This document shows positions 50,696 to 62,750 of a stretch of DNA of 64,000 bases, one piece after another; within the stretch, counting starts at the first letter, position 1; every line of letters starts with the position of its first letter. Source of the DNA: an uncultured Selenomonadales bacterium (GTDB lineage Bacteria; Bacillota; Negativicutes; Selenomonadales; Selenomonadaceae); contig OMYB01000003.1 of assembly GCA_900315155.1 (NCBI GenBank), positions 1 to 64,000 on the forward strand, read 5' to 3'. Under the pieces are notes generated by a model that saw only the letters and a program-made list of their open reading frames with translations, ran no database searches and was not told the origin of the DNA. Both the position numbers and the translations under genes were made by a program.

Positions 50696-53600
50696 TTACG
50701 ATTTTTGAGCCTCCGGCAGACGGCCGAAACGACCGGCAAGTACGCGGAGTTCCGGTGCCTCACCTTCGGCACGCATAAATTCTTCCGGCTTCAGGCACCA
50801 GCCCCAGTTGAGACCGACCGTACCCGGTGTATTCATGCGATGGCGTTCGTCGAGCGCCAGGATATCCTGCATCGGGATAATCGCTATGCGGGCATTCGAT
50901 CGGTAAGCAAATCCGATGAGGCCGCGGCAGACATCGGCCGGGCGTTCCGGATTGGCGCCGACGAGATCAGCAACGGAAGCACGCGTCGCATCATCGAGTT
51001 CCTGCGTGTACCAGCCCACCGTCGTGTTGTTATCGTGCGTACCCGTGTAGATGATGCTGTTCTCGGGTGCAACGAAACCCATGCGGTGCTGCTCATTGAA
51101 ATGCAACATGAACTGCAGGACTTTCATGCCCGGGAATCCACAGTCGTCGCGGAGCTTTTCGACTTCATCCGTAATGATGCCGAGGTCCTCCGCCACGATA
51201 GGCAGGTCGCCGAGTTCTTCCTTCAGGGCATCAAAGAGTGCCTTGCCCGGGCCTTTCACCCAGTGACCGTTGATCGCGGTATCCGCTTTCGCATCGACGG
51301 CCCAATACGCTTCGAAACCGCGGAAATGGTCGATGCGCACGATATCGACGAACTCATAGAGCTTGCGCAGGCGGGCTTTCCACCAGCGGAAACCATCCTT
51401 CTCCATGGCGGCCCAGTCATAGTGCGGGTTGCCCCAGAGCTGCCCCGTCGCACTGAAGTAGTCCGGCGGCACACCGGCCACCGTCTTTGGCGAGCCATCC
51501 CCGTTGAGCAGGAACTGCTGCTGGTTAGCCCAGACATCGGCGCTGTCGTACGAAAGGAAGATCGGCACATCGCCCAGCAGGCGGATGCCATGCTCACTCG
51601 CATAGTCATGCAGCTTCTTCCACTGCATGTGGAAGATATACTGCCCGAACTTCACGAGGCCGATGGGCTCCTCGAGGCGGGCCGTAAGTTCTTTGAGTGC
51701 CTGCGGATCACGGGAACGGACAGCTGATGGCCACTCATTCCATGAGCGGTTGCGGAACTCTTTCTTCGCTGCCTTGAACAGCGCGTAGTCATCGAGCCAC
51801 CATGCCTCTTCCTCGCAGAAGGCCTGGAAGTCCCCCTTGTCCTTCACCGTCCGGCTGTATCTCGCCCATGCCTTACGCAGGCATTTCTGCTTGAACTCCG
51901 TAGCACGCGGATAATCCACGAAGGAACCGCGTGACTCAAACGGGATGCGCGCTTCCGCCGGATTCAGCCAGCCGCGTTCGAGCAAATCATCGATATCGAT
52001 GAGCAGCTCGTTGCCGGCGAAGGCTGACGGGGACTGATACGGCGAGTTGCCGAAATCGAGCGGACCGATGGGAAGCATCTGCCAGACCGACTGGCCAGCC
52101 GATACGAGGTAATCCACAAAGCGGAATGCTTCCTTGCCCAAGCCTCCGATGCCATATTTCGACGGCAGGGAAGTCGGATGCAGAAGGATACCGGCCAGAT
52201 GCTCATAGGTATACGGGAGGTCCTGACGCTGCAGGACGTATGCCTTGAGTGGCGGAACGGATACGGTGATATGGCCGTTAACGACCTTCCATCTCTCTCC
52301 GTCATCCGGATGGAGTGCATCCACGAAGGCTCCCTCCGCGAAGTCGCTGACGTCGAGCGTAACCTCTTTCTTCTCTTCCCGGCTGCGGTTTGCCACATAG
52401 ATGAAGGCTTCATCTTTTGCCTCGGCGCCGAAGACGTCGTGTCCATCCTCGATGACACGGGCGTAGGCCATGACATCCCCATGCGCGTAAAGCGGCAGGA
52501 TAGCACCTGTCTGCAGCACTGTATGCTCGTTGCGGAGCTTCACGAGTGCCTTGACGGTATCCTCGATGTACGTATCTTTATGATCCCAGGTATACGGGCG
52601 GCGGTTATACGGATCCTTGAATCCCTGCATGCCGATTTCATCCCCGTAATAGATGCTCGGGACGCCCGGATACGTCATCTGCCAGCCGATCGCCATGAGC
52701 AGGCGGGCCATACCGAGATTATACTGATCCGTAGACATGCGGAACCGCGACTGCTCCACCGCCGGCATGCCATCGTAGTACGGTGCTTCACCGAGGATGG
52801 TGATGGCACGTGCACGGTCATGGCTGCCGATGAGATTCATCATCGCATAGTAGTTTTCCTTCGGATAGTTCTCACGCAGGCTGCGGAAACGGCGGGCGCA
52901 GAGCTCCGGGTCGACGCTGCCTGTGAGGAAATCGAAAAGGTACTGGCGGAACGGATAGTTCATCGCCGAATCCATTTCCTGGCCGCAGAGGTACTCGCGC
53001 GCAACGCCGTAGGCAATCTTGTGTGAGCAGTCCTCCCAGACCTCGCCGATCATCACGGCATCCGGGTCGGTGTGTTTGAGCTCTTTGTAGAACGCCTGCG
53101 AGAACGTGGCGGGCAGCTCATCGATGACGTCGAGGCGCCAGCCGCCGATGCCTGCCTTCATCCAATGATGGAGCACGCTGTCCGCATCGTTGATGATGAA
53201 GTCCATATAGGACGGGGTCGTCTCCGTGACATTCGGCAGCGTATTGAAATTCCACCAGCAGTCGTATTCATACGGGTAATGACGGAAATTATACCACGAA
53301 TAGTATGGCGATTCCGGCGACTGGAACGCGCCGATGCTGTCATACTCTCCCTTCCGGTTGAAATACCGGCTGTTGCTGCCCGTATGGCTGAATACGCCAT
53401 CGAGCAGGATGCGGATTCCCTTTTTCTTCGCTTCCTGGACGAGTTCGCGGAACTCCTCGTTCGTGCCAAGCACCGGATCGATTTTCTTGTAATCGCCCGT
53501 ATCGTAATGATGATTGCTCTCAGACTCAAAGACCGGATTCAGGTAGATGACCGAAATGCCGAGCTCTTTCAGATGATCGAGCTTCGACCGGATGCCCTTG

Positions 53601-54184
53601 AGGTTGCCGCCAAAGAAATCATAGGCGACAATCTCCTTCGTATCCGGATCCTTGTAGTAGCAGGGGTCGTCCTCCCAATCCATATGCATGACGGCGCCCT
53701 TTTTCCCGACAATCTGATCACCGACGCGGCAGTAACGGTCCGGAAAAATCTGGTACATGACACTGTGCTTAAACCAATCCGGCGTCTTTGCTCCCTTATT
53801 GAATACCGTAATCTGGAACGATGGCGGCTCATGGGGATAGATCTGCCCGCGGCCTCCGAGCTGCTCCGGATTATTGCCATAATAGCAGATGCCATCTGCG
53901 AGGGACAGGATGAAATAATACCAGAGCAGACAGCCTTGAGGCGGCATGGTCACCCATGCACAGAAATCATGATCTTCTTGTTCCGGATTGGGGTGTTCTT
54001 CCTTGAGGGTAATCAGCTTCTCGCCCTGACGGTCCTGCCATAATCGCAGCAGCACGCCCTTGATCTCTTCCTTCGTCTTGAGATGGATGTTGATCTTGAT
54101 GCGGCTGCCAGCTTCGGCAGCACCGACTGGATTGCGGAAGAAGATATCCTGGGAGTTATGCAGGGCATGATCGTTGTCCAGCAT
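50696..54184 (-). CDS. Fused GH13 alpha-amylase and GH77 4-alpha-glucanotransferase
   Basis: About 1162 residues. An N-terminal carbohydrate-binding-like domain precedes a GH13 barrel (about 145-640): nucleophile D in GGWRLDVIDEL near 350, acid/base E in MIGEVWED near 379, and transition-state D in GSHDRAR near 453. A GH77 amylomaltase (MalQ) follows (about 665-1155): LLHPTSLPSKYGIGGLG, D in VRIDHFRGF near 951, E in AEDLGIITDE near 996 and THDNN near 1047. One chain would thus open and rearrange alpha-glucans, acting in glycogen breakdown with GlgP. AAGGA lies 7 nt before the ATG at 54184. Last gene of the operon. Confidence 0.92.
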   Translation of the reverse strand: MLDNDHALHNSQDIFFRNPVGAAEAGSRIKINIHLKTKEEIKGVLLRLWQDRQGEKLITLKEEHPNPEQEDHDFCAWVTMPPQGCLLWYYFILSLADGICYYGNNPEQLGGRGQIYPHEPPSFQITVFNKGAKTPDWFKHSVMYQIFPDRYCRVGDQIVGKKGAVMHMDWEDDPCYYKDPDTKEIVAYDFFGGNLKGIRSKLDHLKELGISVIYLNPVFESESNHHYDTGDYKKIDPVLGTNEEFRELVQEAKKKGIRILLDGVFSHTGSNSRYFNRKGEYDSIGAFQSPESPYYSWYNFRHYPYEYDCWWNFNTLPNVTETTPSYMDFIINDADSVLHHWMKAGIGGWRLDVIDELPATFSQAFYKELKHTDPDAVMIGEVWEDCSHKIAYGVAREYLCGQEMDSAMNYPFRQYLFDFLTGSVDPELCARRFRSLRENYPKENYYAMMNLIGSHDRARAITILGEAPYYDGMPAVEQSRFRMSTDQYNLGMARLLMAIGWQMTYPGVPSIYYGDEIGMQGFKDPYNRRPYTWDHKDTYIEDTVKALVKLRNEHTVLQTGAILPLYAHGDVMAYARVIEDGHDVFGAEAKDEAFIYVANRSREEKKEVTLDVSDFAEGAFVDALHPDDGERWKVVNGHITVSVPPLKAYVLQRQDLPYTYEHLAGILLHPTSLPSKYGIGGLGKEAFRFVDYLVSAGQSVWQMLPIGPLDFGNSPYQSPSAFAGNELLIDIDDLLERGWLNPAEARIPFESRGSFVDYPRATEFKQKCLRKAWARYSRTVKDKGDFQAFCEEEAWWLDDYALFKAAKKEFRNRSWNEWPSAVRSRDPQALKELTARLEEPIGLVKFGQYIFHMQWKKLHDYASEHGIRLLGDVPIFLSYDSADVWANQQQFLLNGDGSPKTVAGVPPDYFSATGQLWGNPHYDWAAMEKDGFRWWKARLRKLYEFVDIVRIDHFRGFEAYWAVDAKADTAINGHWVKGPGKALFDALKEELGDLPIVAEDLGIITDEVEKLRDDCGFPGMKVLQFMLHFNEQHRMGFVAPENSIIYTGTHDNNTTVGWYTQELDDATRASVADLVGANPERPADVCRGLIGFAYRSNARIAIIPMQDILALDERHRMNTPGTVGLNWGWCLKPEEFMRAEGEAPELRVLAGRFGRLPEAQKS

Positions 54185-54214
54185 AGTTGATTCCTTCCTT
54201 CTTTCCTTTTCCAT

Positions 54215-54246
54215 AAAAAACAGGTGGCAGCACCGTCTGCCACCTG
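54215..54246 (-). terminator. Internal terminator/attenuator after glgA
   Basis: A perfect 10-bp stem CAGGTGGCAG / CTGCCACCTG with a 6-nt loop and six T residues on the minus strand, between glgA and the GH13-GH77 gene. It may lower expression of the last gene. Confidence 0.75.
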
Positions 54247-54265
54247 CCATGCCGATAACGATGCC

Positions 54266-55702
54266 TTAAGCCTCAACGAGCTGCCCGTAGAGCTTCTCGT
54301 AGGCCTTGGCGGATTCCTTCCAACTGTAATCGGCCTGCATTGCATTCTGAACAAGCTGATACCACTCGGCGAAGTTGCCATGAGTAGCCAGTGCACGTTT
54401 CAGTGCATACATCATTTCATGAGCATTGTAATCCTTGAAGGTGAAGCCGACGCCTTCCTTCGTGACCTTGTCATACGGGATGACCGTATCCTTCAGGCCG
54501 CCCGTCTCGCGGACCACCGGAATCGTGCCGTAGCGCATGGCGATCAGCTGACCGATACCGCACGGCTCGTAATTCGACGGCATGAGGAAGATATCGGCAC
54601 CGGCATAGATGCGCTGAGCGAGCTGGTTCGAGAACCGGATATTGGCGGATACCTTCTTCGGGAAACGCCAGGCGAGACCTTTGAACCAGTCCTCATAGCG
54701 TTTCTCACCCGTGCCGAGCAGGACAAACTGGATATCCTCATGCTGGAGGATTTCATCCATCATGCGCACAATGAGATCCATGCCCTTCGCCTCGACGAGG
54801 CGGGATACGAGGGCAACGACCGGCGTGCGGCGCTCTTCCGGCAGGCCGAGCAGGCGCTGGAGCTGTACCTTGTTGTCGATCTTGCGGTCGACCGTGCCGG
54901 CATCGTACGTCTCGAAGATGTTCTTGTCCGTGCGCGGATTGTAGACATCATAGTCGAGACCGTTGACGATACCATACAGGTCATCTTTGCGGCTGCGGAG
55001 CAGGCCATCGAGATGCTCGCCGAAATACGGATACTGGATTTCCTGCGCATACGTCTTGGAAACCGTGGAAACATAATCGGCGTAGATGATACCGCCCTTC
55101 ATGAAGTTGACGGCATCGTAGAATTCGAGGTCGCCGTTGTTGAAATACTTCCAATCGAGACCGAGGATATCCGGCATGATGTCCTTCGGGAACACGCCCT
55201 GATACTTGAGGTTATGGATCGTGTAGAGCGTCTTGATGTTCGCATAACGCTCATCATCCATATGCTCAAGCTTCAGGAATACGTTGACGAGACCCGTATG
55301 CCAGTCGTTCGTGTGGATGACATCCGGCCAAAAGTCCATGGCCGGCAGCAGGTTCAGCACGGCGCGGCTGAAGAAGGAGAAACGCTCCGCATCATCGTCA
55401 TAGCCATAGAAGCCATCACGGCGGAAATACTCTTCGTTATCGACAAAGTAGAACGTCACGCCGTTGTAGTTGAGCATGTCGAGCCCGACGTACTTATCGC
55501 GCCAGGATACCGGCAGCTCGCCATCATAGACGTGCGTCATCTGCGCGCGAATCTCTTCCGGAATCATGCCATATTTCGGCATGATCACACGGATATCCAC
55601 GCCTTCCTCTTTGAGGGCTTTCGGCAGGGAACCGGCCACATCGGCCAGACCGCCTGTCTTGGCAAAGGGAACTGCTTCAGATGCTACAAATAAAACTTTC
55701 AT
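54266..55702 (-). CDS. glgA: Glycogen synthase (ADP-glucose)
   Basis: 478 residues, GT5 family. N-terminal MKVLFVASEAVPFAKTGGLADVAGSLPKAL contains the KTGGL ADP-glucose binding motif; HTNDWHTGLV, AGADIFLMPSNYEPCGIGQLIAMRYGTIPVVRETGGLKDTV mark the C-terminal GT-B domain. Extends alpha-1,4 chains from ADP-glucose. It lies 33 nt after glgB in the operon. Confidence 0.96.
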   Translation of the reverse strand: MKVLFVASEAVPFAKTGGLADVAGSLPKALKEEGVDIRVIMPKYGMIPEEIRAQMTHVYDGELPVSWRDKYVGLDMLNYNGVTFYFVDNEEYFRRDGFYGYDDDAERFSFFSRAVLNLLPAMDFWPDVIHTNDWHTGLVNVFLKLEHMDDERYANIKTLYTIHNLKYQGVFPKDIMPDILGLDWKYFNNGDLEFYDAVNFMKGGIIYADYVSTVSKTYAQEIQYPYFGEHLDGLLRSRKDDLYGIVNGLDYDVYNPRTDKNIFETYDAGTVDRKIDNKVQLQRLLGLPEERRTPVVALVSRLVEAKGMDLIVRMMDEILQHEDIQFVLLGTGEKRYEDWFKGLAWRFPKKVSANIRFSNQLAQRIYAGADIFLMPSNYEPCGIGQLIAMRYGTIPVVRETGGLKDTVIPYDKVTKEGVGFTFKDYNAHEMMYALKRALATHGNFAEWYQLVQNAMQADYSWKESAKAYEKLYGQLVEA

Positions 55703-55735: not shown

Positions 55736-57865
55736 TTATTCCGCACCAGCTGCAGCCTGTCTGGCCGTGGCTTTCCTGCGTGTCGTACGTTTCCTGGTTG
55801 TCGTGTTTTTTGCCGTTGTTTTCTTTGCCGCCGTCGTACGCGTTGTCCTGCGGCGCGTCGGCTTCTTTACCGCAGCTTCTCGCTGTGCTTCCTCACGTTC
55901 TGAGGTCTCATGCCCCTGCGCCTTTACCCGTTTTTTTTCCTGCGGAGCCTTCTGGCCGGCACCGTGGCTGCCCTTCACGCGCAGGTAAATCGTCGCGAGA
56001 GGGGGAATCGTGAGGACGAGCGACTGATTGCGGTCATGCCACGGCTTGTCCTCCGTAAGGAGATCGCCCGTGTTCTCTACACCGCTGCCGCCGAATTCCT
56101 CGGCATCCGAATTGAACACCTCGACGTACGTGCCCTTCTGTGGGACGCCGATGCGATAGCCATGACGGACCTCCGGCGTAAAGTTGCAGACAACGACGAT
56201 GTAATCCGACGGATCCTCCGCCTTGCGGACAAAGGAAATGACGCTGTTCTCGTTATCATTGCAATCGATCCACTGGAAACCATTCCAGTCGAAGTCGACA
56301 TCCCAAAACGGCTTGTTCTCGTTGTAGAACTTGTTGAGTTCCTCGGAGTAATGCTGCATCTTCGTATGCATGGGGTATTTTTCCGGGAGATGCCAGTCGA
56401 GGCTGTCGTCATACTTCCACTCGATGAACTGTCCAAACTCACCGCCCATAAAGAGCAGCTTCTTGCCCGGATGGGACATCCAGTAGGCGAAGAACGTGCG
56501 CAGGCCGGCAAATTTCTGCCAGTAGTCACCCGGCATCTTGCTGATCAGCGAGCACTTGCCATGCACGACCTCATCATGCGAGAGCGGCAGCACGAAATTT
56601 TCGCTGAAGGCATACATGAGCGAGAACGTAACCTTATCATGGTTCCACTTGCGGTAGATCGGATCGAGCGACATGTATTTGAGCATATCGTTCATCCAGC
56701 CCATGTTCCACTTATAGTTGAAGCCCATACCGCCCATGCTGACCGGCTTCGAGATCATCGGCCATGCCGTCGATTCCTCGGCGATCATGAGTGCCTGCGG
56801 ATGGTATTTGAATACCGTCTCATTGAGTTTTTTCAGCAGATCCATCGCTTCGAGGTTGCCCGTGTCACCGTATTTATTCGGCGTCCACTCGCCGTCCTCG
56901 CGGCCATAGTTCAGGTAAAGCATATTCGCGACAGCATCGATGCGCAGGCCGTCGATGTGGAACTCCTCCATCCAGAACAAGGCGTTCGAAATGAGGAAGC
57001 TCTGCACCTCCGTGCGGCCGTAATCGAAATTCGTCGTGCCCCAGCCTTTGTTTTCGGCCAGCTGCTCGTTGTCCGACTCGTAAAGATTCTGGCCATCGAA
57101 CATGCGCAGGCCCTGGTCATCCTTGCAGAAATGCCCCGGCACCCAGTCCATGATGATGGAGATACCGTTCTGATGCGCCTGGTCGACGAGATAACGGAAG
57201 TCATCCGGCGTGCCATAACGGCTCGTCACAGCATAGAATCCCGTAATCTGGTAGCCCCACGACCCATCGAAAGGATGCTCGCAGAGCGGCATGAACTCGA
57301 TGTGCGTGTAATGCATCTTCTTGACATACGCGATGAGCTGATCCGCGAGTTCGCGGTAGGAGAGATATTCTCCCTCCGGATTCCGCTTCCAGGAACCGGC
57401 ATGCACCTCATACGTCAGCATCGGCCGGCCATAACTGGACAGCAGCTGTTTCTGCTGCTGCCAATCCGCATCGTGCCAGGTATAGTGGTTCATATCATAG
57501 AGACGCGAAGCGGTCTGCGGTTTCTTCTCAGCGAAGAAGCCATACGGATCGGCCTTCATGATATGCGGGCCGCCCCACTGCGGCTCAATCGCATATTTAT
57601 AGACGGCACCCTCCTCGAGCCCCGCAACGAAACCCACCCAGATCTCACCGTCGCGGCCCCGCACCATGGGATCCACACGGGTATCCCAGTTGTTGAAGTC
57701 GCCAACGATACTGACAGATTTCGCATGCGGTGCCCAAACGGCAAAGCGCACGCCCTTTTTGCCGTCCTGTTCCACGAAATGCGCTCCGAGCATCTCGTAG
57801 GCATGATAGTTCGTGCCTTGGTGGAACAGATACAGGTCAAATTCACTCAGATCCGATGTTTTCAC
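55736..57865 (-). CDS. glgB: 1,4-alpha-glucan branching enzyme with a basic repeat tail
   Basis: 709 residues. CBM48 (about 20-125), then the GH13 branching core: YTHIEFMPLCEHPFDGSWGYQ, nucleophile D in GLRIDAVANML near 310, E in LMIAEESTAWP near 362, and PLSHDEVVHGKCSL. The canonical protein ends near residue 632 (IPPLATIYLRVKG). An extra tail of about 75 residues follows: first charged, then Lys/Arg/Thr/Ala-rich with AAKKTTAKNTTTRKRTTRRK, like histone H1-type tails. It makes alpha-1,6 branches in glycogen. It lies 26 nt after glgP. Confidence 0.95.
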   Translation of the reverse strand: MKTSDLSEFDLYLFHQGTNYHAYEMLGAHFVEQDGKKGVRFAVWAPHAKSVSIVGDFNNWDTRVDPMVRGRDGEIWVGFVAGLEEGAVYKYAIEPQWGGPHIMKADPYGFFAEKKPQTASRLYDMNHYTWHDADWQQQKQLLSSYGRPMLTYEVHAGSWKRNPEGEYLSYRELADQLIAYVKKMHYTHIEFMPLCEHPFDGSWGYQITGFYAVTSRYGTPDDFRYLVDQAHQNGISIIMDWVPGHFCKDDQGLRMFDGQNLYESDNEQLAENKGWGTTNFDYGRTEVQSFLISNALFWMEEFHIDGLRIDAVANMLYLNYGREDGEWTPNKYGDTGNLEAMDLLKKLNETVFKYHPQALMIAEESTAWPMISKPVSMGGMGFNYKWNMGWMNDMLKYMSLDPIYRKWNHDKVTFSLMYAFSENFVLPLSHDEVVHGKCSLISKMPGDYWQKFAGLRTFFAYWMSHPGKKLLFMGGEFGQFIEWKYDDSLDWHLPEKYPMHTKMQHYSEELNKFYNENKPFWDVDFDWNGFQWIDCNDNENSVISFVRKAEDPSDYIVVVCNFTPEVRHGYRIGVPQKGTYVEVFNSDAEEFGGSGVENTGDLLTEDKPWHDRNQSLVLTIPPLATIYLRVKGSHGAGQKAPQEKKRVKAQGHETSEREEAQREAAVKKPTRRRTTRTTAAKKTTAKNTTTRKRTTRRKATARQAAAGAE

Positions 57866-57891: not shown

Positions 57892-60357
57892 TCAGGAAAT
57901 GATGACCGGTTTAATCTGCCAGATTTCGTTTGCATACTCGTCGATCGTACGGTCCGAAGAGAACCAGCCAGAGTTTGCGATATTGACGGCCGAAGAATGC
58001 AGCCACTCATAACGCTTCTCGTAGCGGTTATAGATCTCCTCATGCGCATCGACATAAGCATTGAGGTCTTTGAGGATGAAGAATTCATCGTTGCTGTGCT
58101 GGATATCATCGAAGATGGCACGGAAATCGCCATACGGGCCGTCGAGAAGCTGGTTCATGACGAGGCGTGCCGTCTCGTTGTTGTTGTACTCATCCCAGGC
58201 AGAATAACCGCCATGGGCATAGAAGTCAAGCACCTGCTCCGCACGCAGACCGAAGAGCACGAAGTTATCGTCTCCGCCGACAGCGTCGCGGATCTCGACG
58301 TTTGCACCATCGAGCGTACCGAGCGTGACAGCACCGTTCATCATGAACTTCATGTTGCCCGTGCCGGATGCCTCCTTCGAGGCCGTCGAAATCTGCTCAC
58401 TGACATCGGCCGCCGGGTAGACGATCTCACCGATGGATACGCCGAAGTTCTCGATGAAGACCACTTTCAGGCGGTCGTTCGTCTCCGGATCGTTGTTGAC
58501 GACATTGGCTACGGCGTTGATAAGGCGGATCGTCTCTTTCGCGATATAGTAGCCCGGCGCAGCCTTGCCGCCGAAGAAATACGTCGTCGGCAGCATCGTG
58601 TAATCCTTATCCGTCTTCAGTTTGTGATACTGATACATGATATGGAAGATGTTCATGAGCTGGCGCTTGTAGGAATGGATGCGCTTGACCTGGATATCGA
58701 AGATGGAATCCGGATCCAGGACAATGCCATTATGCTCTTTCACATAATCCGCCAAAGCGGCCTTGCGGATACGCTTGACCTTACCGAGCTCGGAGAGGAA
58801 CGGCTTGTCGTTGACGAAGTCGTTCAGCAGGTCGAGCTGCTCCGGATGACGGTGCCAACGGCGGCTGCCGATCGTATCATCGATGAGGCTGGCCAGCTCC
58901 GGGTTTGCGCCCATGAGCCAGCGGCGGTGCGTGATACCGTTCGTCTTGTTGTTGAACATCTGCGGATGATATTCGTAGAAGTCATGCAGCGTCGTCTGCT
59001 TCAGGATACCCGTATGGATCTTGGCGACACCGTTGACGCTGTGGCTGCCGACGACGGAGAGACGAGCCATGTGCACCATGCCATCCTGGATGATGGACAG
59101 GGCACGCACCTTGCCCTCGTCGTCCGGATAACGGTCGCGGACCTCGAGGAGCCAGCGGCGGTTGATCTCGTCGATGATCATATAGATGCGCGGCAGCAGC
59201 GGACGGAACATGTCGATTGGCCATTTCTCGAGGGCCTCCGGCAGGATCGTGTGGTTCGTATAGGCGATGGTGTTCTTCGTGATGGCCCATGCCTCGCTCC
59301 ACTCCAGGCCTTCCTCATCGACGAAAATGCGCATGAGCTCGGCGACGCAAAGTGCCGGATGCGTATCGTTGATATGGATGGCGATCTTCTTGGCGAAGTC
59401 GTGGATGTCCATGCCCGTCTTCTTATAATGGCGGACAATGCTCTGTACGCCGGCGGAAACCATGAAGTACTCCTGGATGAGGCGCAGGCGGCGGCCCTCT
59501 TCCGTACTGTCATCCGGATAGAGGAAGCGTGTGATGGACTCGACCCAGCGTCGGTAATCCTCACGCTGACGGATCTGCTCCTGGTTCAGGTAGCCATAGT
59601 CGGAGAAATCGCGGTTGACCTCTGCATTCCACAGGCGCAGCGTGTTGACCGTATTGTTGTGGTAGCCGACGATAGGCACATCATACGGGACAGCCATGAT
59701 GATCGTCGGGTTCTCATAGACGAGTTTCAGGCTGCCATCCGGCTGCTCTTTCATGTAGGCATTACCGTTGAACTTGACGTCGATGGCCTTATCCGGCTTG
59801 CGATACTCCCAGGCAAAGCCGTTCTTCAGCCAGTTATCCGGGATCTCGACCTGATGGCCGTCGATAATCTTCTGCTCGAACAGGCCGTACTGATAACGGA
59901 TGCTGCAGCCATGCCCCGGCAGGCGGTGCGCTGCAAGGGAATCGATGAAGCAGGCTGCGAGACGGCCGAGGCCGCCGTTGCCGAGGCCTGCATCCGGCTC
60001 CTCGTTGAACGTGTCCGAAAGGGACAGGTCAAAGTCACCGAGAGCTTCCTTGACGACCTCATCGATGCCGAGGTTCATGAGGTTGCTCTTGAGCAGGCGG
60101 CCCATGAGGAACTCGATGGAGAAATAGTAGGCCTGCTTCTCCTGACGCTCCGCATAAGCTTTGTTCGTCTTGATCCAGTTATCCGAGATGAAGGTCTTCG
60201 CTACAGCAGCGACCGTCTGATAAATCTCGTTCGAGGTCAGCTCGTTGATCTCACGGCCCCACATGATGTGTGCAGCCTGGACGAAACGGGTCTTCATAGC
60301 CTCCTTGGCTTTCTCGAACTCGCGGCTCTTCTTCTGATCTTTCTTTTCCTTTGCCAA
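57892..60357 (-). CDS. glgP: Glycogen/maltodextrin phosphorylase
   Basis: About 821 residues, GT35. Landmarks: YFSIEFLMGRLL, GLGNGGLGRLAACFIDSLA, HPALCVAELMRIFVDEEGL, KRIHSYKRQLMNIF, and the PLP-region EASGTGNMKFMMNGA with the lysine near 672. Releases glucose-1-phosphate from alpha-1,4 chains. The open frame runs to an ATG at 60381, but GGAGG is located 10 nt before a TTG at 60357 (MAKEKKDQKK), which is the probable start. Confidence 0.95.
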   Translation of the reverse strand: MAKEKKDQKKSREFEKAKEAMKTRFVQAAHIMWGREINELTSNEIYQTVAAVAKTFISDNWIKTNKAYAERQEKQAYYFSIEFLMGRLLKSNLMNLGIDEVVKEALGDFDLSLSDTFNEEPDAGLGNGGLGRLAACFIDSLAAHRLPGHGCSIRYQYGLFEQKIIDGHQVEIPDNWLKNGFAWEYRKPDKAIDVKFNGNAYMKEQPDGSLKLVYENPTIIMAVPYDVPIVGYHNNTVNTLRLWNAEVNRDFSDYGYLNQEQIRQREDYRRWVESITRFLYPDDSTEEGRRLRLIQEYFMVSAGVQSIVRHYKKTGMDIHDFAKKIAIHINDTHPALCVAELMRIFVDEEGLEWSEAWAITKNTIAYTNHTILPEALEKWPIDMFRPLLPRIYMIIDEINRRWLLEVRDRYPDDEGKVRALSIIQDGMVHMARLSVVGSHSVNGVAKIHTGILKQTTLHDFYEYHPQMFNNKTNGITHRRWLMGANPELASLIDDTIGSRRWHRHPEQLDLLNDFVNDKPFLSELGKVKRIRKAALADYVKEHNGIVLDPDSIFDIQVKRIHSYKRQLMNIFHIMYQYHKLKTDKDYTMLPTTYFFGGKAAPGYYIAKETIRLINAVANVVNNDPETNDRLKVVFIENFGVSIGEIVYPAADVSEQISTASKEASGTGNMKFMMNGAVTLGTLDGANVEIRDAVGGDDNFVLFGLRAEQVLDFYAHGGYSAWDEYNNNETARLVMNQLLDGPYGDFRAIFDDIQHSNDEFFILKDLNAYVDAHEEIYNRYEKRYEWLHSSAVNIANSGWFSSDRTIDEYANEIWQIKPVIIS

Positions 60358-60465
60358 ATTGAACACTCCTCCGGAGTACATAAAAAATAATAGAACAAGC
60401 CACGGCGAGGGCAGCCATGCCTCATTGCAGGCCCGGATACCCTTGCAGCGGCTTGTTCCCGGTTA

Positions 60466-61569
60466 TCAGATGACGACGTTCTTCTTCACGATGAGCGGGT
60501 AGTTCGGTGCACCCTTCAGCCACTTCTCTTTCGTGATGACGACGTTTTTATCGCAAATGACATTCTCGACGAGAGCGCCATCCTGGATATCGCATTTCTG
60601 CATAATGATGGAATTCTTGATGGTAACGTCCTTGCCGACGGTTACGCCACGGAACAAAATACTGTTCTCGACCTTGCCGCGGACGATACAGCCATTGGCG
60701 AGCAGCGAATTCTTGACATCCGCTGTCTCCTTGTACTGTACAGGCACGGCGTCCTTGACCTTCGTGCTGATCGCGTTCTTGCCCATGAAGAGCTCCTCCC
60801 ACACCTCTGGCTGCAGGATATCCATGCTTGCCTTGTAGTAGGAGGCTGTCGAGTCCACATGTGCCACATAGCCATCATGCTCGTACGCGTAAATCGTGTA
60901 GTCGCCAGCGCGTTTCACGAACGTATCCATGCGGAGATCTTCACCGCCATGCTCGTAACTGTAGCGGACCATCTCGATGAAGATGCGTTTCTCGATGAGC
61001 ACGATGCCCATGGAGACTTTTTCGCCGTCATACACGTTCTTCTTGACGGAGATATCTTCGACGAGGCCATTTTCAGCGGTCTCGAGGACGACGCTCTCGC
61101 CCTCCTGCTGACCGGATACCGTGTGATAGACCAGCGTGATGTCCGCTCCCGTGTTCTGGTGGAACCGCAGGAGTTCATCATAGTCCATGTTATAGACGAA
61201 ACTGCCGTTGGCGAGGAGGACGTACTTCTGTGAATGATGCTCAAAGAAATCCAGATTGTAGTAGAAGTTCTTCAACGTGCCCTTGCGGGATGGATCCGCG
61301 GACACGGACGGCATGTAGAACAGACCATCATGACGGCGGGCGAGATCCCAGTCTTTACCGGAACGCAGATGGTCCAGCAGGGAGCGGGGGTTGCTCGGCA
61401 GCATGACGCCGACATTGATGATGCCGGAATTCACGATGCTCGAAAGGGCAAAGTCAACCAGGCGGTAACGCCCGGCAAACGGAACCAGTTCCACACTGCG
61501 GCGCTCAGCCAGTTCACGGATAAAGCCGTTGTCTTCCTGAAGGTTCAGGATTCCCATTACATTCTTCAA
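60466..61569 (-). CDS. glgD: Glucose-1-phosphate adenylyltransferase regulatory-type subunit
   Basis: 367 residues. Nucleotidyltransferase fold with GlgD-type divergence: KNVMGILNLQEDNGFIRELAERRSVELVPFAGRYRLVDFALSSIVNSGI lacks the GGxGxRL loop of GlgC. The C-terminal half is a left-handed beta-helix (VENSILFRGVTVGKDVTIKNSIIMQKC). In related bacteria GlgC and GlgD form one ADP-glucose pyrophosphorylase. It follows glgC by 26 nt. Confidence 0.94.
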   Translation of the reverse strand: MKNVMGILNLQEDNGFIRELAERRSVELVPFAGRYRLVDFALSSIVNSGIINVGVMLPSNPRSLLDHLRSGKDWDLARRHDGLFYMPSVSADPSRKGTLKNFYYNLDFFEHHSQKYVLLANGSFVYNMDYDELLRFHQNTGADITLVYHTVSGQQEGESVVLETAENGLVEDISVKKNVYDGEKVSMGIVLIEKRIFIEMVRYSYEHGGEDLRMDTFVKRAGDYTIYAYEHDGYVAHVDSTASYYKASMDILQPEVWEELFMGKNAISTKVKDAVPVQYKETADVKNSLLANGCIVRGKVENSILFRGVTVGKDVTIKNSIIMQKCDIQDGALVENVICDKNVVITKEKWLKGAPNYPLIVKKNVVI

Positions 61570-61595: not shown

Positions 61596-62750
61596 TCAGC
61601 CAGCCTGCTTCGAACCTGCCTCCGGCTGTACCGTCTCGCCTTCAGCGACGACCGTCACGGCGCCTTCCTCACCCGTGACCGCAGCATGGTCGGAAATCGT
61701 GCAGTTCTGTGCCACGATCGCATAATCGACGACCGCGCCTTCTCCGATGACCGTGGACGGCATGACGACGGAATTCGTTACCTTTGCCCCTTTGGCGATA
61801 CGGACGCCAGGGAAAATTACGCTGTTCTCGACCTCGCCGAGGACCATGGAGCCCTCGCTGATCATCGAGTTCTTGACCTTCGCATCCGGGCCGACGAAAT
61901 GAGGCGGCATGGACGGGTTGGAGGAATAGATCTTCCAATCGCCGTTCAGATCAAAGGGCGGCTTGTCCTGCAGCAGGTCCATGTTGGCCTGCCAAAGGCT
62001 CTCGATCGTTCCGACATCCTTCCAGTAGCCTTCGAAAGCATAGGAGAAGAGACGTGCCTTGTCTTTCAGCATCTTCGGGATGATGTTCTTGCCGAAGTCA
62101 TGTGCCGAAGTCTCATCCTTCGCATCGTCAAGGAGGTATTTCTCAAGGAAGTCCTTGTTGAAGATGTAGATACCCATGGAAGCGAGGTTGCTCTTCGGTT
62201 TTGCCGGTTTCTCCTCGAACTCCTCAATGCGGCCCGTCTTATCCGTGTTCATGATGCCAAAGCGCGGTGCCTCATCCCAGGGGACCTCGATGACGCCGAT
62301 CGTCGCCTCTGCCTTGTTCTGCTTATGCGACTCCAGCATCCAGGAATAATCCATCTGATAGATATGGTCGCCCGACAGGATCAGCACATAGTCCGGATCC
62401 GCTGCATCGATGAAGTTCAGGTTCTGGTAGATGGCATCTGCCGTGCCGCGGTACCAGTCTGCCCCCTTCTCTCTTGCATACGGCGGCAGGATAAAGACGC
62501 CGCCTTCTTTCTTATCCAGATCCCAAGCACTGCCCGATGCAAGGTAGTTGTGGAGCTCGAGCGGACGGTACTGCGTCAGGACACCGACGCGGTCGATTCC
62601 CGAGTTCGCGCAGTTACTGAGTGGGAAATCGATAATACGGTATTTACCGCCGAACGGCACTGCCGGCTTTGCGATCTTCTTCGTCAGGGCGCCAAGGCGG
62701 CTACCCTGTCCACCGGCCAGAATCATTGCTAAGCACTCTGTCTTTCTCAT
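61596..62750 (-). CDS. glgC: Glucose-1-phosphate adenylyltransferase catalytic subunit
   Basis: 384 residues. [16 protein letters not shown] (nucleotide loop), [45 protein letters not shown] and EEKPAKP are all present, followed by a C-terminal beta-helix. Forms ADP-glucose, the committed step of glycogen synthesis. First gene of the operon, with AGGGGGG 7 nt before the ATG. A TATAAT lies 18-23 nt further upstream on the minus strand (about 62768-62773) as a possible -10. Confidence 0.96.

Follow-up and report, generated by a model that had tools for sequence, protein, structure and literature searches.

A basic C-terminal tail on the glycogen branching enzyme of Selenomonadaceae and its possible link to nucleic acid

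Introduction

Basic protein segments that contact nucleic acid are described in several settings. Histone H1-like HC2 is a free nucleoprotein, and Myxococcus CarD has a DNA-binding tail of the AT-hook/HMGA type, the core of the AT-hook being RGRP. Polycations, for their part, bind any polyanion. The bacterial branching enzyme GlgB (GH13; TIGR01515/PRK12313) is the closest described relative of the protein studied here, which is the same up to residue ~630 and then adds a basic tail of 80 residues.

A branching-enzyme homologue of plants, MKIP1, has been recruited to RNA splicing and is listed among plastid nucleoid proteins; it is reported to have lost its enzyme activity and to work via a 150-aa insertion that binds MatK (PMC13172542). 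In many bacteria, slippage occurs readily at runs of nine A, and Thermus dnaX is reported to yield two products in this way (PMC1088944). In the open PubMed Central literature we found no report of a basic or AT-hook tail on GlgB, of slippage in glgB or of AT-hooks on lumazine synthase, and the words glycogen, branching and Selenomonas are absent from the main text of a paper on frame transitions in prokaryotes (PMC3711429).

The window, i.e., the whole stretch of DNA that was analyzed, comprises 64,000 nucleotides of contig OMYB01000003.1 from the 2.49-Mb genome of an uncultured Selenomonadales bacterium (GCA_900315155.1). Genera and loci of relatives are referred to by our own labels.

Results

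The window GlgB is a normal branching enzyme followed by a basic tail

A glycogen operon lies on the minus strand around glgB. Judged by their sequences, we take the genes upstream of it to be glgC (61596-62750), glgD (60466-61569) and the directly preceding glgP (57892-60381), and the next gene, 33 nt past the glgB stop, to be glgA (54266-55702). The operon ends with a 1184-aa ORF (50696-54250, minus strand) that presumably joins an amylase-type half to a 4-alpha-glucanotransferase-type half. Neither glgP nor glgA of the window encodes a tail.

The glgB reading frame (55736-57865, minus strand) starts with GTG, encodes 709 aa and is uninterrupted. Its product contains the Pfam domains CBM48, Alpha-amylase and Alpha-amylase_C and scores above the curated cut-offs of the NCBIfam models PRK05402, PRK12313 and TIGR01515, the latter two matching residues 4-632 with 939 bits (cut-off 577) and 894 bits (cut-off 464), respectively. 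The branching-enzyme domains of the Pfam and NCBIfam profiles end at residues 629-632, and alignments to solved GlgB structures end at residue ~630. In an alignment of 14 GlgB sequences D310, E363, D431 and H430 are invariant; we assume the first three to be the GH13 catalytic Asp, Glu and Asp, and judged from this alignment the catalytic residues look intact. The protein is thus normal as an enzyme up to residue ~630, with the tail lying beyond.

The tail occupies 80 codons and the stop (55736-55978, minus strand), past the Alpha-amylase_C domain; the codons from 55978 to 55739 read VKGSHGAGQKAPQEKKRVKAQGHETSEREEAQREAAVKKPTRRRTTRTTAAKKTTAKNTTTRKRTTRRKATARQAAAGAE. With 19% Ala, 18% Thr, 15% Lys and 15% Arg and a net charge of +17, it bears out the extra Lys/Arg/Thr/Ala end of GlgB that the preliminary description had claimed, as real, in frame and basic. 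A run of A8 (55931-55938, minus strand; T8 on the plus strand) lies at the core-tail border, with a stop four codons on in the +1 frame and ten codons on in the -1 frame. The linker contains VKAQGHE (55907-55927, minus strand), which resembles a [VA][KR]GxE motif conserved in the linkers of the relatives. As we read the sequence, an acidic/Ala/Gln stretch, TSEREEAQREAA (55871-55906, minus strand), then leads over to a basic Lys/Arg/Thr/Ala segment of 44 residues, VKKPTRRRTTRTTAAKKTTAKNTTTRKRTTRRKATARQAAAGAE (55739-55870, minus strand). A similar layout is visible in several relatives. RGRP is absent from the 80-residue tail of the window.

The tail is predicted to be disordered, with a pLDDT of ~30 and almost no structure in the predicted model. 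This call is a weak one because the model is poor overall: it was built from 14 sequences, has a mean pLDDT of 62 and falls below 50 in parts of the catalytic domain as well. The basic segment is covered by a match to HC2, and the likeness to histone H1 noted earlier holds for composition (E=0.0056 with the tail alone). It does not extend to family membership, as the scores stay below the curated cut-offs of both PF07382 (17.2 against 40 bits) and NF038052 (14 against 135 bits). An origin of the tail by expansion of a DNA repeat was rejected: Lys, Arg, Thr and Ala are each written with a mixture of synonymous codons, and no exact DNA repeat is longer than 9 nt, so that no recent DNA repeat underlies it.

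Within the source genome the tail stands out. We surveyed protein ends in 792 kb (32%) of it, covering 659 ORFs of at least 100 aa from a crude caller that includes antisense ORFs. Over the last 50 residues GlgB has the joint highest net charge (+15) at a much lower complexity; the ORF tied with it is, judged by its C-terminus, presumably ribosomal protein S13. Among the recognizable non-ribosomal proteins of this portion, none has an end as basic and as simple as that of GlgB, and a genome-wide habit of basic tails was accordingly not borne out in this third of the genome. When the basic segment or HC2 served as query against the genome, glgB was the sole match. The most similar ends in the surveyed part belong to a TolC-like outer membrane efflux protein, whose C-terminal tail is rich in Lys and Ala (L317:15063-16670, minus strand), and to a DEAD-box helicase. 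The genome also encodes a second, distant branching-enzyme-like protein (G000:C20:74359-76191, L002) with 31% identity and no such tail.

GlgB tails are widespread in the family, variable and under purifying selection

To compare GlgB C-termini across the family, 143 of 151 genomes were used; two lacked a GlgB match and six (G005, G020, G046, G062, G110, G144) had partial or paralogue matches only. Two of the 143 rows (G007, G035) end at contig edges. GlgB extends beyond its core by 2 to 260 residues, and in 89 genomes by at least 40 aa. With a basic tail defined as at least 40 aa and a net charge of at least +8, 80 of these 89 qualify. All three congeners of the window genome, in contrast, have extensions of 6-21 residues, i.e., lack the long tail. 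Comparison across the family returned in-frame basic tails in 80/143 genomes and none in the three congeners.

These counts bear on the trivial explanation that the tail is an annotation or assembly artefact, or non-coding DNA read through a local frameshift. Tailless congeners and the A8 run at the border would fit such an error. The window tail, however, reads like the basic tails found in frame in the relatives, and glgA begins 33 nt past the stop, a normal operon gap. We regard an artefact as extremely improbable, and the local frameshift that the preliminary description had named as a way to refute the tail is excluded by the relatives' evidence. Its statement that such a tail is unusual on GlgB fails inside the family and stands outside the lineage, where seven of 42 GlgBs from other families of the class have tails of that size and charge. 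A looser test (30 aa and +6) is passed by 17 of 28 clostridial/Oscillospirales-type loci, which were chosen by similarity, grouped from titles and are a non-random set. Among the other glg proteins checked, GlgP showed an extension of 0 aa in 42 cases and GlgA one of at most 8 aa in 18; the basic tail is specific to GlgB among them.

Names were put to genus codes only for titled loci whose tail is the same as that of a family genome: L041 (Selenomonas artemidis) shares the tail of G090 (g9), L038 (Mitsuokella) that of G019 (g17) and L043 (uncultured Anaerovibrio) that of G087 (g21). In L170, the last part of the glgB tail of G063 looks frameshifted relative to close relatives and is still basic and open.

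A tail this variable might be a tolerated, weakly selected low-complexity extension that acts as a solubility aid or entropic bristle and has no specific partner. Consistent with this, its length ranges widely, its residue order is scrambled and long and not-long tails interchange 12 times on a quick tree of 141 of the 143 rows (360 columns from the GlgB end and the GlgA start, many forks open), with losses in whole genera. Tails therefore come and go. Their residues, on the other hand, are under purifying selection. In 26 defined values from 27 hand-picked close pairs (one undefined), dN/dS of the tail is 0-0.49 with a median of 0.17, compared to 0-0.14 for the adjacent core; alignment of low-complexity sequence can bias dN downward, and several of the pairs are gap-free. 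The [VA][KR]GxE linker motif was counted in 28 of the 89 tails that reach 40 aa, where shuffling gave 1.6; the window has the near form AQGHE and misses the strict match because Q replaces K/R. Since basic charge is also kept in most long tails, and given the AT-hook enrichment and the retained separate ORF described below, a merely tolerated extension appears improbable.

AT-hook cores occur in a subset of tails and in a separate conserved ORF

RGRP occurs 14 times in the 77 tails of at least 60 aa, distributed over 12 tails from five genera, whereas shuffled tails gave a mean of 0.085 and a maximum of two in 1000 shuffles. Several tails have a longer unit, RGRP(K/R)MTEE(E/Q)KA, in common. 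The presence of AT-hook cores in relatives' tails favors binding to nucleic acid. The remaining 65 of the 77 long tails lack RGRP. An AT-hook is also seen at the N-terminus of a ~585-aa protein in genus g25 (L244, L248, L256, L261; KKRGRPRKTEAEK).

A search of the family with the longer unit led to genus g13, where GlgB itself ends bluntly and an AT-hook ORF lies directly 3' of glgB in 13 of 66 genomes (L160:715-936, minus strand; L262-L273 and L278). The work on frame, alignment and dN/dS covered 11 of the 13 and left aside G190 and G189, of which G189 sits at a contig end. All 11 placed copies use the +1 frame, and in each of them this frame runs on without a stop past the end of glgB. An ATG is found 14-44 nt ahead of the end of the glgB stop codon in eight copies and at +10 in another; a tenth has a TTG at +1, and in G112 no start is clear. 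Their alignment shows an invariant RGRP and a strong second motif, [VF]G[EKD]EPN[RK]R. Differences are dominated by the third codon position (1646 against 859 and 744), and dN/dS does not exceed 0.38 in any of the 26 pairs, out of 55, for which it is defined. The AT-hook module therefore exists as a separate conserved ORF.

With the small ORF as query, 300 genomes of the class gave ten matches: six such ORFs, three in-frame GlgB tails and one tail of RibH (lumazine synthase). One copy tested from between glgB and glgA matched no Pfam or NCBIfam family, and no stand-alone AT-hook ORF was found in the source genome of the window (best E 0.57). A phage origin of the small ORF was rejected, there being no match to phage records and only a weak one to PHROG (E 0.034). 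A related tail, in frame with GlgB, is present in genus g2, which neighbors g13 on the tree. Taken together with the small-ORF data, this makes it most likely that the tail split off from GlgB, was kept as a small gene of its own and was later lost in a sub-clade.

Reading of RibH C-termini in 30 genomes yielded short AT-hook-type tails with RGRP, KGRP, RGRRP or RGRK in ten, all from g13 (RibH C-termini at L397-L409). GlgB is thus not the only metabolic enzyme in the lineage to bear a tail of the AT-hook type. None of the seven genomes among these 30 that have the small ORF has such a RibH tail; as the two features sit in different sub-clades, this exclusion perhaps reflects coincidence or history rather than function.

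Not all of these data point to nucleic acid. Instead, the tail could serve as an electrostatic scaffold for glycogen metabolism whose targets are acidic partner proteins, polyphosphate, other polyanions or phosphorylated glucan, and which gathers GlgB on granules or governs particle size. In favor of this, most tails lack an AT-hook. The restriction of the tail to GlgB among the glg proteins checked and its patchy origin on GlgB in the class and in clostridial/Oscillospirales-type loci also fit, since an extension that keeps arising on one enzyme suggests a role particular to branching. A role at polyanions or granules is thus the main rival, because most tails are hookless and similar GlgB tails arise elsewhere. 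Against it stand the AT-hook cores, which exceed chance by far in part of the tails, are invariant in the stand-alone ORF and have no obvious use on a granule, and we consider it rather unlikely, if a serious candidate.

A poly-A run marks the core-tail border in genus g9

In genus g9 (GC 0.54-0.62), a run of A10 lies exactly 65 nt into the tail in eight of 14 genomes (L119, L120, L126, L127, L129, L131, L140, L142). Of the others, one each has A9, A8 and A7, and three have no run. In all eight A10 cases a stop follows five codons on in the +1 frame and eight codons on in the -1 frame, the +1 stop being TAA or TGA and built from different codons. No further run of at least eight A or T was found in 68.5 kb of g9 loci, and tri-lysine is encoded by AAAAAAAAA in eight of nine border cases as opposed to none of 16 elsewhere.

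Across the 77 tails, A9 or longer occurs 13 times in the first 100 nt, compared to 2.9 in codon-shuffled tails (maximum of 9 in 300), and not at all further on, where 3.5 were expected; the excess is largely due to g9, a single genus. In individual synonymous shuffles the run was significant (P 0.003-0.033) only in the four g9 genomes tested and in one g21 genome. Long runs in g24, in g15 and in two of three g21 cases (P 0.13-0.54) as well as the A8 of the window (P=0.155 alone) were not significant. In g13, five of the 11 genomes with a placed small ORF also have a run of A8-A9 just 5' of the glgB stop, where slippage would join the tail to GlgB rather than cut it off.

From its position and the nearby stops, the A10 of g9 might serve to switch GlgB from a tailed to an untailed form and back. 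The pattern fits RNA slippage, ribosomal frameshifting and phase variation in the DNA alike; replication slippage, as in phase variation, gives the same picture as programmed slippage, so both readings fit.

Discussion

We propose, tentatively and with a confidence slightly short of even, that the tail is a disordered polycationic module that would tether GlgB to nucleic acid, DNA above all. Such an evolved module, intrinsically disordered and joined to an otherwise normal branching enzyme, would bind nucleic acid in the manner of H1/HMGA-type basic tails, and GlgB together with the young glycogen particle might thereby be held at the nucleoid or kept from the free cytoplasm. DNA appears the likeliest partner because the only specific element that recurs, and that survives as a free ORF, is the AT-hook. 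We infer binding to DNA in the cell from sequence features; for the window tail, which has no AT-hook, binding would have to occur by charge alone, and the effect of the tail on glycogen is likewise conditional on the tether. The missing RGRP in the window, the HC2 scores below cut-off and the hookless majority of long tails all speak against a DNA tether. Whatever the function, the loss of tails in many relatives, including all three congeners, indicates that it is dispensable.

A wider reading would be that Selenomonadaceae have an optional DNA-binding GlgB tail, switched by slippage at the poly-A border in g9 and perhaps in the window, or supplied in g13 as an AT-hook protein translated across the glgB stop, with the AT-hook transferred to lumazine synthase in those genomes that lack the ORF. 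As a whole, this chain of steps is doubtful. If it were true, there would be a direct coupling between the nucleoid and glycogen branching, and the proportion of tethered and free enzyme would be built in. Should the tail bind DNA at all, the chromosome would determine at which site glycogen particles are begun or shaped in the bacterium, a link between the chromosome and particle placement for which we found no paper in the open PubMed Central literature. As tailed, untailed, split and slippage-prone glgB genes exist in one family, the question is directly testable.

Compared to known systems, the window tail shares the Lys/Ala/Thr/Arg low complexity of HC2 (PF07382) but sits on an enzyme. 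The likeness to AT-hook/HMGA-type and Myxococcus CarD-type tails lies in the RGRP flanked by Lys/Arg that is found both in the tails of relatives and in the stand-alone ORF; in those known proteins the hooks belong to regulators or architectural proteins, whereas here the hook is on a storage-polysaccharide enzyme. With the A9 of Thermus dnaX, described as a site of transcriptional slippage (PMC1088944), the g9 genes have in common a coding A10 at the core-tail border and thus two possible products, although slippage in glgB is putative and the run in the window is A8 only. MKIP1 resembles the proposed system in that a branching-enzyme fold is tied to nucleic-acid work. It is reported, however, to act through an insertion rather than a basic tail and to have lost its activity (PMC13172542), whereas the catalytic residues of the window GlgB look intact.
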